From contig CAMYJU010000019.1 of the NCBI GenBank assembly GCA_947258795.1, positions 1-44,815 of the forward strand: DNA of 44,815 nt, written 5' to 3'. Each line of letters opens with the position of its first letter. Positions within the stretch are counted from its first letter, which is position 1. Shown one piece after another: positions 26,590-31,250 of this stretch. The notes under the pieces are model-generated. The model was not told where the DNA came from. It did no database searches and was given only the letters and a program-made list of their open reading frames with translations. The stretch is from an uncultured Gammaproteobacteria bacterium (GTDB lineage Bacteria; Pseudomonadota; Gammaproteobacteria; DRJJ01). The position numbers and the translations under genes are program-made.

Positions 26590-26619
26590 CAGCTATGCTC
26601 GATAATACAGGTGCAGCTT

Positions 26620-28065
26620 ATGGGTATTGATCTGAACCAATATGATCCCGGAAAATTTTATGACGAGACCATGTCCGGGAAGAATCGTGCGCGCGGTTAC
26701 AGCAAGGAACTGGTCAAACTGTTCAGAAAAATGGATGAGGACGAGCTCACTGCCAGGCAATCGGCGGCTGATCTGGCAATCAAGGAAATGGGGATTACCT
26801 TCACCGTGTATAGCGAGAGTGAAGGGACAATCGATCGTAACTGGCCGTTTGACATCATACCCAGAATTATTCCGAAAAGTGAGTGGGACAATATTGAAGC
26901 AGGCTTGATTCAACGTGTTAAGGCACTGAATTTATTCATAAATGATCTCTATAGTGAGCAGAAAATTATTGCCGATGGCGTTTTTCCTGCCGAGGTGCTG
27001 GCGGATTCAAAAAATTTCAGGCCGCAGTGTGTCGGTATATCACCAGCGCATGGTGTCTGGGCTCATGTCTGCGGGTCAGACCTGGTCCGTGATATAGACG
27101 GTACTGTGTATGTACTCGAGGACAACCTGCGTGTGCCATCCGGTGTTTCCTACATGCTGGAAAACCGGGAAGTGACCAAGCGCGTATTTCCTGAGTTGTT
27201 CAAGAGCTATGCACCAATGCCCGTTGACGACTACCCGGTACAGTTGCATGACATGCTTGCCTCAATCTCACCAAGGAAGGTAAAACGCCCCGAAGTGGTC
27301 GTTTTGACACCCGGAATCTACAATTCAGCCTACTTCGAACATGCCTATCTGGCGCACCAAATGGGTGCGGAGCTGGTCGAAGGCAGGGACTTGTTCGTCG
27401 ATAAAGACGAATGCGTCTATATGCGTACTGTCGCCGGGCCCCAACGTGTAGACGTGATCTACCGCAGGATCGATGATGATTTTATCGATCCCGAAGTCTT
27501 TCGCAAGGACTCTGCACTCGGTGTACCGGGCCTGATGCGAGCCTGGAAAGCCAACAAGGTCGGTCTTGCCAATGCCCCTGGTGCCGGCGTTGCAGACGAC
27601 AAGGTCGTTTACGCGTTCGTACCCGATATCATACGCTACTATCTTGACGAAGAACCGATCATCCCCAACGTACCAACCTATCGTTGCATGTACAAGGATG
27701 AGTGTGAATATGTACTGGCAAACCTGGACAAACTGGTCGTCAAACCGGCTAACGAATCCGGAGGCTACGGCATGATGATTGGCCCCAACGCATCAAAAGA
27801 CGAACAGAATACCTTTGAGGCACTGATAAAGAAACATCCCAGAAACTATATCGCCCAGCCTACTCTTGGCATTTCCACAGTACCGACTGTCAGTGGCAAA
27901 ACACTCGAGCCGAGGCATGTTGACCTCAGACCATTCGTGCTCAGCGGCAAAGTCACTACGGTCACCACCGGGGGATTGACCCGTGTCGCCATGCGTAAAG
28001 GTTCACTGGTGGTCAATTCATCACAGGGCGGTGGATCCAAGGATACCTGGATAGTGGCGGATTAA
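26620..28065 (+). CDS. Circularly permuted ATP-grasp type 2 family protein
   Basis: This 481-residue protein belongs to the circularly permuted ATP-grasp group (DUF404/DUF407-type). Visible blocks are AEVLADSKNFRPQCVGISP, VLEDNLRVPSGVSYMLENR (Glu167-Asn169 region, a likely metal or ATP site), TPGIYNSAYFEHAYLAHQMG, and VVKPANESGGYGMMIG (Lys375 to Gly388, phosphate loop). The C-terminus is RHVDLRPFVLSG. Such enzymes ligate an amine to a carboxylate using ATP and are predicted to make peptides of unknown sequence. ATG 26620, with AGGTG six bases upstream, was preferred to GTG 26611. The alpha-E gene follows after 12 bases. Confidence 0.93.
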   Translation: MGIDLNQYDPGKFYDETMSGKNRARGYSKELVKLFRKMDEDELTARQSAADLAIKEMGITFTVYSESEGTIDRNWPFDIIPRIIPKSEWDNIEAGLIQRVKALNLFINDLYSEQKIIADGVFPAEVLADSKNFRPQCVGISPAHGVWAHVCGSDLVRDIDGTVYVLEDNLRVPSGVSYMLENREVTKRVFPELFKSYAPMPVDDYPVQLHDMLASISPRKVKRPEVVVLTPGIYNSAYFEHAYLAHQMGAELVEGRDLFVDKDECVYMRTVAGPQRVDVIYRRIDDDFIDPEVFRKDSALGVPGLMRAWKANKVGLANAPGAGVADDKVVYAFVPDIIRYYLDEEPIIPNVPTYRCMYKDECEYVLANLDKLVVKPANESGGYGMMIGPNASKDEQNTFEALIKKHPRNYIAQPTLGISTVPTVSGKTLEPRHVDLRPFVLSGKVTTVTTGGLTRVAMRKGSLVVNSSQGGGSKDTWIVAD

Positions 28066-28077
28066 AGGAGTCTAACG

Positions 28078-29028
28078 ATGTTATCCCGTGTGGCAGAAGC
28101 GATTTACTGGTCCGGTCGATACATAGAGCGTGCCGAAAATACCGCCCGCCTGCTAAGAGTCAATTCCAACCTGATGATGGACACACCGAGAGGAATTTCC
28201 CCTGGATGGGAGCCACTGGTCTCCATTACCGGTCTCGGGGCGGAATTCGAAAAAAAGAAGTCCGGGGCGACTGAACGTAGTGTCGCCAAATATCTGATCG
28301 GTGACGCAAAAAATCCCAATTCGATTATCAGCTGTCTGAAGATGGCGCGGGAAAACTGCCGTACCATCCGTGAAATTATCCCGCTTCCCGCCTGGCAGGA
28401 ATTGAACAAGCTTTACCTGTTTGCAAAGGAAAACGCTGCCTCAGGTGTAACACAAAAAGGCAGGGATTATTATCTGGATGGCATATTTTCCGGTTCGCAA
28501 CAGCTTAATGGTCTGTTCGCATCGGTCATGTATCAGGATGTGGCCTGGCATTTTCTTCGTATTGGTCGTGATATTGAGCGCGCCGAGATGACGACCCGTA
28601 TCCTGGATGTACGAACCTCTGATTTGTTAACCGAAGCTGAAGAAATCATAGAGTCCAGAAGCCTGGAAAGCGTGCAATGGATCAGTATCCTGAAATCACT
28701 ATCTGCCTATTCAATCTATCGTCGTACTGTGCAGGTACGCGTAAGCAGATATCCCGTACTGGAATTCCTGTTTCATGACGCCCAGTTCCCCAGGTCAATT
28801 GCACACTGCCTTACATCCGTGGAAGAAAGTGTCGGCCTGATGTCAAATAATACCTTACCGCTGAAGGCGCTAAGAGTGGTTTTCCGTCGGCTCAACAGAC
28901 AAAGCATGGAAAACCTGCGGCAACAGAAACTGCATAAGTTCATTGACGAGCTGCAGCTTGGTATCAGGCAATTTCACAATTCCCTGGAGAAACAGTATTT
29001 TCCACATCAATTTCAACATGTTAACTAA
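28078..29028 (+). CDS. Alpha-E domain protein (DUF403)
   Basis: This 316-residue, almost all-helical protein starts MLSRVAEAIYWSGRYIERAENTARLL in family style (given here only as its recognised motif). It later has the second signature RIGRDIERAEMTTRILDVR. Alpha-E proteins always accompany circularly permuted ATP-grasp enzymes, as a partner or as a fused domain; their own activity is unknown. A strong Shine-Dalgarno (AAAGGAG) precedes the ATG, and only 12 bases separate it from the ATP-grasp gene, so the two are surely co-transcribed. A 114-base gap with a hairpin follows before Anbu. Confidence 0.92.
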   Translation: MLSRVAEAIYWSGRYIERAENTARLLRVNSNLMMDTPRGISPGWEPLVSITGLGAEFEKKKSGATERSVAKYLIGDAKNPNSIISCLKMARENCRTIREIIPLPAWQELNKLYLFAKENAASGVTQKGRDYYLDGIFSGSQQLNGLFASVMYQDVAWHFLRIGRDIERAEMTTRILDVRTSDLLTEAEEIIESRSLESVQWISILKSLSAYSIYRRTVQVRVSRYPVLEFLFHDAQFPRSIAHCLTSVEESVGLMSNNTLPLKALRVVFRRLNRQSMENLRQQKLHKFIDELQLGIRQFHNSLEKQYFPHQFQHVN

Positions 29029-29142: not shown

Positions 29143-29967
29143 ATGACATATTGCGTCGGACTGAGTCTTGATCAGGGCCTGGTATTTGCGTCTGACTCTC
29201 GCACCAATGCGGGAGTGGATTACGTTACCACCTACAGCAAAATGCACCTGTTTACGCCAGCAGAGGACAGGCTATTTGTGATACTGTCAGCGGGTAATCT
29301 GGCCACAACCCAGGAAGTCATCAATCACATTCAGCGTGACATAGACTATCCCACCGGCGAACCGAATTTGAGCAATGTTAAATATCTATTCGAAGCCGCA
29401 GAGTATGTTGGAAGCATCAGCCAGCAGGTTCAACAGGAACACAGTAGTGCATTCAACAAATCAGGTGTCAGCGGAGAAACTACCTTGCTGATCGGAGGGC
29501 AGATCCTCGGACAACCCCCCGGGCTGATTATGATCTACCCGGAGGGTAACTACATCAGTTCATCGCCACAAACCCCCTATTTACAAATCGGCGAAAGCAA
29601 GTACGGCAAGCCCGCCCTGGACCGTATTGCACACACTGGCCTGCAACTTGATGAAGGTGCGCGACTGACCCTGGTATCTCTGGATGCAACAACACGCTCC
29701 AACATCACAGTGGGCCCGCCTTTCGAAGTCGCCATCTACCCAAAAGACAGTTTCAAGCTCAGTTGTCGTTGCAGCTTTGATGAAAAAGACCCTTACCTCA
29801 TGAGGCTGCGAGACGCCTGGAACTCGGGCATTAATGCTGTTTTTCATGGCTTGCCTCCGTTTGAAAGCAGCCCTCTGCAACAGCAGACGATAAACTTTCC
29901 CGCAACACAGGAACAGGTACAGTCGCAAGCGGAACAAATGACGAAACCGCAACGACAGATTACCTGA
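29143..29967 (+). CDS. Anbu, proteasome-type Ntn peptidase
   Basis: Anbu is the third bacterial proteasome-like family besides HslV and the 20S proteasome. The 274-residue product starts MTYCVGLSLDQGLVFASDSRT. After Met removal Thr2 would be the N-terminal nucleophile, with Asp18 in SDSRT and Lys33 in TYSKMH completing the usual Thr1/Asp17/Lys33 site. FVILSAGNLATTQ and IGESKYGKPALDR are further family marks. The last 35 or so residues are Gln-rich (QQQTINFPATQEQVQSQAEQ) and look like an added flexible tail. Anbu genes typically sit with ATP-grasp, alpha-E and transglutaminase genes, as here. The natural substrate is unknown. Confidence 0.95.
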   Translation: MTYCVGLSLDQGLVFASDSRTNAGVDYVTTYSKMHLFTPAEDRLFVILSAGNLATTQEVINHIQRDIDYPTGEPNLSNVKYLFEAAEYVGSISQQVQQEHSSAFNKSGVSGETTLLIGGQILGQPPGLIMIYPEGNYISSSPQTPYLQIGESKYGKPALDRIAHTGLQLDEGARLTLVSLDATTRSNITVGPPFEVAIYPKDSFKLSCRCSFDEKDPYLMRLRDAWNSGINAVFHGLPPFESSPLQQQTINFPATQEQVQSQAEQMTKPQRQIT

Positions 29968-30011: not shown

Positions 30012-31250
30012 TTGAATTCACTCGCATTCAAACGTAACGGCGACAAAAAAAATTCTGACTTTTTCGAGGAATACCTGGTACGACTGCTGGAAGAACGGGA
30101 CTCGGTCGGTCTCAGCGACATGATCTACGAGATTGACGCAATCATGATTACGGTTGATCCGGGTCATTCAATTCGCTATATCGCCGAACTTTCACTGATG
30201 TCGCCCTATCATTACCTGGTCTCGCTGGAAACTGAAAATCACTGGACGCATGTCCTGCGGGTCGACATGAACTCACCCGACTTGCTGATACGTGAAGTCA
30301 AGGATGCCCATATACAGGGTATATTTCGCAGCCTGAACGAGATTTACCCGATCGGCTCACACAAACCTAACAGCCGTTATATGGGTGAAATCCTCAGGGT
30401 CAGCGACTTGCATGGCGTTGTTCAACTTCAGCAGGAACGTGATTTCCGGTTTTTCACCCAGGACCAGATCAGAAAACTGGAACTGCCGGGCAACCTCGGC
30501 ATCAGCAAACCATCGCCCTATACGCACAACATCATCGGCTATATAGAACGGCCTGAAGACCAGCTACGGGTTTATTCTCTGGGAGTCAGCACTATTCGCA
30601 ATGATGTTCAGGAGGCATATTGCAGTGCAAAAGAACTGCAAAAGAAGTTACAGATAGACGAGCTGATACTTCCGATCGACCACCTGGCAACCCGCATCTA
30701 CAGCCAGAACCGTGAAGTTGCCATTCTGGAGTGGCTGTCCTTGTCCAGCTATTACTACTGGGGCTCATATGACATCAAGGACCAGAACTCGTCAACCAAT
30801 GTAACCAAGAGTGTGCATCATTCCAATGAATTAAAGAGCCCGGCCAAGGTCTTTACTGCCAACAACACACCGTATCTGGTCAATCATCTGGTAAAACTTC
30901 CATCGCCGACGGAGACCTTTGTTCGTAACTATGGCCCGCGACTGCACCATATCGCCCTGGCTGTTCGTGATGGAACCACCAATAACATCGAAAATATAGA
31001 AATGGTGGTTAACCAGATCGCCGCACAGGGCAAGGACTTTCTACTTGATGTTATTGGCTCCAAGGAGGAAGGGCTCAAACAGATATTTTCCAGTGCTTCT
31101 GAACATTCCTCACTGATCATCGAATATGTGCAGAGATTTGGAGACTTCCAGGGATTCTTCGCCAAGGATAACGTAGCGGAACTTACTCATGCGGCAGGGG
31201 TCGAGAATGAACTCAACAAACTTTCAAAAAGCTCTTATGTAGATAGCTGA
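30012..31250 (+). CDS. Uncharacterised protein with a C-terminal HPPD-like VOC domain
   Basis: This 412-residue protein starts at TTG 30012; a stop at 29994-29996 limits the frame and the only other upstream choice is CTG. The Shine-Dalgarno is poor. Residues 1 to about 210 match nothing I recognise. The C-terminal half resembles 4-hydroxyphenylpyruvate dioxygenase: PIDHLATRI (His224), GPRLHHIALAVRD (His313) and SSLIIEYVQRFGDFQGFF (Glu371) lie where the two-His-one-Glu iron ligands of that fold would be. An iron-dependent oxygenase is plausible, but the identity is inferred from motifs only. It follows Anbu after 44 bases on the same strand and ends two bases from the convergent SthA-like gene. 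Confidence 0.7.
   Translation: MNSLAFKRNGDKKNSDFFEEYLVRLLEERDSVGLSDMIYEIDAIMITVDPGHSIRYIAELSLMSPYHYLVSLETENHWTHVLRVDMNSPDLLIREVKDAHIQGIFRSLNEIYPIGSHKPNSRYMGEILRVSDLHGVVQLQQERDFRFFTQDQIRKLELPGNLGISKPSPYTHNIIGYIERPEDQLRVYSLGVSTIRNDVQEAYCSAKELQKKLQIDELILPIDHLATRIYSQNREVAILEWLSLSSYYYWGSYDIKDQNSSTNVTKSVHHSNELKSPAKVFTANNTPYLVNHLVKLPSPTETFVRNYGPRLHHIALAVRDGTTNNIENIEMVVNQIAAQGKDFLLDVIGSKEEGLKQIFSSASEHSSLIIEYVQRFGDFQGFFAKDNVAELTHAAGVENELNKLSKSSYVDS

Follow-up and report, generated by a model that had tools for sequence, protein, structure and literature searches.

We describe an unnamed family of VOC proteins that belongs with the small class of 4-hydroxyphenylpyruvate dioxygenase (HPPD), hydroxymandelate synthase (HMS) and hydroxyglutarate synthase (HglS). 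The gene is almost confined to bacteria with the little-understood ATP-grasp/alpha-E/Anbu peptide-bond system and, therefore, probably encodes a component of it that uses oxygen and has so far gone unrecognised. The explanation we favour, with moderate confidence, is that these proteins form a new HPPD/HMS/HglS-like family of two-substrate, alpha-keto-acid-dependent oxygenases, functionally part of the ATP-grasp/alpha-E/transglutaminase-amidoligase system with Anbu. The novelty lies in the link between such a family and an Anbu-type amidoligase system. Crystal structures of Anbu exist, but its substrate, activity and partner have not been reported, and neither co-expression nor pull-down experiments were successful (PMC5666114, PMC6376114); published Anbu work names neither substrate nor partner (PMC5666114, PMC6376114, PMC8665760). 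An oxygenase-like protein tied to the system predicts assayable chemistry, involving Fe(II), O2 and a 2-oxo acid that bears a distal carboxylate, and this chemistry would point to the metabolite of the system. Our literature searches revealed no mention of the VOC gene; Iyer 2009, the main review of the system, could hold one.

Gene context of the VOC protein

The window, by which we mean the whole 44,815 nt stretch of DNA that was analysed, contains the gene set published for the Anbu operon (ATP-grasp, alpha-E, transglutaminase and Anbu), all in one direction (PMC5666114, PMC6376114). An oxygenase is absent from the published four-gene descriptions, whereas the window has a candidate directly 3' of Anbu. 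All four genes 5' of the VOC gene were confirmed with Pfam (Table 1). Because one 1100 aa protein fuses the transglutaminase-like domain to DUF2126, the window holds two predicted amide-forming enzymes besides Anbu. The VOC ORF is intact, with a TTG start codon, and lies where an earlier note on this DNA had placed it, on the same strand as Anbu and starting 44 nt past the Anbu stop codon, with no terminator-like site found between the two. The gene is single-copy in its own genome.

Table 1. Features of the VOC gene and its 5' neighbours (positions in the window)
Feature	Position	Strand	Basis
Transglutaminase-like domain fused to putative amidoligase DUF2126, 1100 aa	23287..26589	+	Pfam PF08379, PF01841, PF09899
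Circularly permuted ATP-grasp	26611..28065	+	Pfam PF14403, 2e-167
Alpha-E protein	28078..29028	+	Pfam PF04168, 8e-87
Anbu, proteasome-like Ntn hydrolase	29143..29967	+	Pfam Proteasome 6e-05; Anbu-type orthologues
HPPD-fold VOC protein (predicted), 412 aa	30012..31250	+	ORF, translation, orthologues, predicted structure, fold matches
N-terminal VOC domain (predicted), residues 38-194	30123..30593	+	Two modules in model; metal ligands not expected; HPPD alignment 30-403
C-terminal, catalytic-type VOC domain (predicted), residues 219-375	30666..31136	+	Model, hhalign alignment, HPPD fold match
His224 codon, predicted metal ligand 1 (PIDHLATR)	30681..30683	+	Invariant; aligns with HPPD His161
Arg228 codon, predicted anchor for distal carboxylate	30693..30695	+	Invariant; DHxAxR motif as in DUF1338/HglS, FLO7
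His313 codon, predicted metal ligand 2 (RLHHIAL)	30948..30950	+	Invariant; aligns with HPPD His239
Glu371 codon, predicted metal ligand 3 (IIEYVQR; HPPD FFEIIQR)	31122..31124	+	Invariant; aligns with HPPD Glu319

Predicted fold

The AlphaFold model of the VOC protein was built from 77 sequences (pLDDT 79, pTM 0.83) and replaced a first model from 25 sequences (pLDDT 62). It contains four beta-alpha-beta-beta-beta modules, at residues 38-96, 126-194, 219-284 and 312-375, so that the paired modules of the VOC superfamily are present in the prediction. The top 50 Foldseek matches in the PDB were all HMS or HPPD structures (best E 3.9e-13), and VIA alignment to human HPPD gave Z 22.0 and rmsd 4.0, with 319 residues aligned over model residues 30-403. 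At least about 117 of these residues must come from the N-terminal half, and since one half alone could not yield 319 aligned residues, the N-terminal half appears to be a normal first VOC domain. The earlier note had described this region of about 210 residues as unrecognised and as standing in place of the normal first VOC domain, and had proposed structure prediction and fold comparison as a check. No sequence family matches the N-terminal half, so it is unrecognised in that sense; however, its predicted fold matches HPPD, VOC modules are present in both halves of the model, and the idea of a novel domain is not supported. As a prediction, the HPPD-like fold is well supported computationally.

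Putative active site

His224, His313 and Glu371 occur at the positions and in the HPPD-ligand contexts that had been claimed for them, and are invariant in 109 orthologues. Alignment to the HPPD profile with hhalign (E 2.4e-4; probability 44% at a low diversity, Neff 1.75) placed all three in register with the HPPD Fe ligands, with a score of 38.7 against a maximum of 28.4 among 140 column-shuffled controls. Asn285 and Gln357-Ile358-Phe359 aligned to conserved HPPD positions and are likewise invariant; together with the triad and Arg228 they are retained across the gamma-, beta- and zetaproteobacterial orthologues (77-109 compared). The conserved ligand positions predict metal binding, and topology and alignment suggest that the three side chains converge. 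Predicted fold and alignment support the proposal that the protein is an HPPD-like member of the VOC superfamily whose 2-His-1-Glu site is complete.

The protein has in common with HPPD and HMS the predicted four-module VOC fold over its full length, and it lines up with them at the 2-His-1-Glu ligands and at the QIF and E-x-x-QR motifs. However, identity is only ~13-15%, and the VOC protein had no NCBIfam match at E up to 1, so that it is not recognised by the HPPD model TIGR01263. His312 stands in place of the HPPD glutamine before the second histidine, and DHLATR in place of DHLTHN, with Arg228 replacing the HPPD residue. The predicted HPPD fold is what would favour an ordinary 4-hydroxyphenylpyruvate dioxygenase of tyrosine breakdown. 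We reject this as extremely unlikely, given the missing TIGR01263 match, the motif differences and a gene context without tyrosine-catabolism genes, a lack that the earlier note had pointed out; nor is there any other HPPD in the genome, which itself argues against a role in tyrosine catabolism.

The position of Arg228 recalls a different member of the class. DHLATR corresponds to the DH(I/F)A(L/F)R motif of DUF1338/HglS proteins, and in HglS and FLO7 the motif arginine (Arg74/Arg64) binds 2-oxoadipate by its distal carboxylate; in HglS, an enzyme of lysine catabolism, this arginine is required for activity (PMC7286885). The VOC protein also has the HHE triad order and E-[FY]-x-x-R of HglS/DUF1338. 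At the level of motifs, therefore, both the triad and the substrate arginine are matched, and we take Arg228 as the probable counterpart of the HglS substrate arginine. In contrast, none of 25 family members matched PF07063 (DUF1338/HglS), and profile alignment to HglS/DUF1338 was weak (E 0.002-0.012), with less similarity than to HPPD.

Size, spread and conservation of the family

A scan of GTDB contigs revealed 305 sites encoding the family, the best 80 of which lie in Gammaproteobacteria, Methylophilaceae and other Betaproteobacteria, and Zetaproteobacteria such as Mariprofundus. The gene was carried by 6/94 genomes in the search of relatives, 30/369 genomes of the class and 7/398 of the phylum, counts that include the genome of the window where it is listed. 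No copies were found on plasmids. Across Gamma-, Beta- and Zetaproteobacteria, 109 full-length orthologues are 64-91% identical to the window protein. At the best 80 of the 305 sites, selected for high VOC similarity, median identity to the corresponding window protein was 76% for VOC, 60% for ATP-grasp, 47% for Anbu and 39% for alpha-E. The family is a tight one, since a profile run against 135 genomes of the phylum turned up nothing more divergent. It is not recognised by any Pfam or NCBIfam model; the sole matches of any relevance, YecM and Glyoxalase_4, were below threshold, the latter appearing weakly in 9 of 25 members, and phmmer and profile searches of PDB sequences returned chance matches only.

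Association with the ATP-grasp/alpha-E/transglutaminase/Anbu system

Among the 369 class genomes, alpha-E was present in 28/30 VOC carriers versus 78/339 non-carriers (p 1e-14, relatedness ignored) and Anbu in 27/30 versus 59/339 (p 5e-16, relatedness likewise ignored). The carriers span 20 families, in 19 of which the system is present. Of 258 genomes lacking both alpha-E and Anbu, only two encode the VOC protein, one of them 79% complete. As a control in the same class, HPPD showed no enrichment with alpha-E (6/17 vs 22/97, p 0.36). About two thirds of genomes with both alpha-E and Anbu (54/81) lack the VOC gene, which makes it an accessory to the system.

Physical linkage was also frequent. 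ATP-grasp, alpha-E or transglutaminase genes lie within 10 kb of the VOC gene at 56 of the best 80 loci, and at 30 loci same-strand system genes are within 700 bp. The gene may follow Anbu, alpha-E or transglutaminase, or be divergent from ATP-grasp. Both genome-level co-occurrence and recurrent linkage in different arrangements, our two grounds for system membership, were therefore observed. Clustering of flanking ORFs revealed no further gene family recurring near the VOC gene across lineages, the next clusters being confined to at most 10 loci. Of the 50 loci whose flanks are complete, 13 had no system gene within 10 kb, but all 13 genomes encode alpha-E elsewhere, and 12 encode Anbu.

The earlier note had proposed the protein as a possible partner of Anbu, perhaps an oxygenase or other modifying enzyme for whatever the ATP-grasp/Anbu system produces, and suggested counting orthologues beside it. 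The association is indeed non-random, but Anbu is near the VOC gene at only 20 of the best 80 loci and away from it at 37 of the 56 system-linked loci. A partnership with Anbu alone was accordingly rejected. Mariprofundus ferrooxydans has the VOC gene, alpha-E and ATP-grasp, with Anbu not detected. Because system genes are linked far more often than Anbu, and because unlinked copies occur in genomes with alpha-E, we identify the partner of the VOC gene as the entire system, the link being strictest with the ATP-grasp/alpha-E core. This association is well supported computationally.

Proposed chemistry and alternative explanations

The metal, activity, substrate and pathway place of the VOC protein are ones that we infer, taking HPPD, HMS and HglS as templates for the mechanism (PMC7286885). 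His224, His313 and Glu371 would hold Fe(II), to which a 2-oxo acid would bind in bidentate fashion through its carboxylate and keto oxygens. O2 would then oxidatively decarboxylate the 2-oxo acid, giving an Fe(IV)-oxo species that would hydroxylate the same molecule to yield a chain-shortened 2-hydroxy acid. Arg228, positioned like Arg74 of HglS, may grip a second carboxylate, which would make a 2-oxo-dicarboxylate of the glutamate family, or some comparable acidic group, the probable substrate. A peptide-like molecule, presumed to be made by the ATP-grasp/DUF2126 enzymes and cut by Anbu, could then contain the product as a building block or cap, or pass through it as an intermediate of its breakdown. 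We tentatively speculate that the system makes or recycles a peptide-like metabolite with an oxidatively tailored group, which the VOC oxygenase would make from a glutamate-family 2-oxo acid. If true, this would be the first chemical handle on the function of the Anbu/ATP-grasp/alpha-E system.

One genome, G279 (99% complete), is an exception to the association: the VOC gene is present, and alpha-E, ATP-grasp and Anbu were not found in the genome. Here (L156:7843-13852) there is a 4 bp overlap between the VOC gene and putA, and a glutamate-synthase-domain gene comes next. The arrangement, seen in this one genome, agrees with a 2-oxo acid of the glutamate family as substrate; it also agrees with an alternative in which the protein, HglS-like in function, is an independent oxygenase for 2-oxo acids of the glutamate/lysine family and only accompanies the amidoligase system. 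The HglS-type DHxAxR motif around Arg228 and the 13 loci distant from any system gene point the same way. We nevertheless consider a stand-alone enzyme rather unlikely, in view of alpha-E in 28 of the 30 carriers and in every genome with an apparently isolated copy, and because putA adjoins the VOC gene in G279 only, among the loci examined.

It is improbable, in our judgement, that the protein is inactive and serves the ATP-grasp, alpha-E and Anbu proteins as a scaffold, substrate carrier or regulator. A protein-protein interface could explain why the whole protein is unusually conserved, with 54 invariant residues in its non-catalytic N-terminal half, but pseudo-enzymes usually lose their ligands, and the triad, Arg228, Asn285 and Gln357-Ile358-Phe359 are unchanged across three proteobacterial groups. 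The VOC fold accommodates many chemistries, and another metal-dependent VOC enzyme (an isomerase, a lyase or an extradiol ring-cleavage enzyme) could work with the same system; the best-ranked folds are, however, all HPPD and HMS, and the QIF and E-x-x-QR motifs are common to HPPD, making such an activity very improbable.

Unusual VOC loci

Two VOC copies appear disrupted, one with a TAG and missing parts (L031, genome G205) and one split into two frames (L029, genome G156); decay or sequencing error is possible in each. At L040:7189-9950 the VOC gene is directly preceded by two tandem Anbu genes. Genome G044 has two VOC copies (L007/L060 and L002/L039), one after Anbu and the other between two amidoligase clusters, of the separate and the fused ATP-grasp/alpha-E type.
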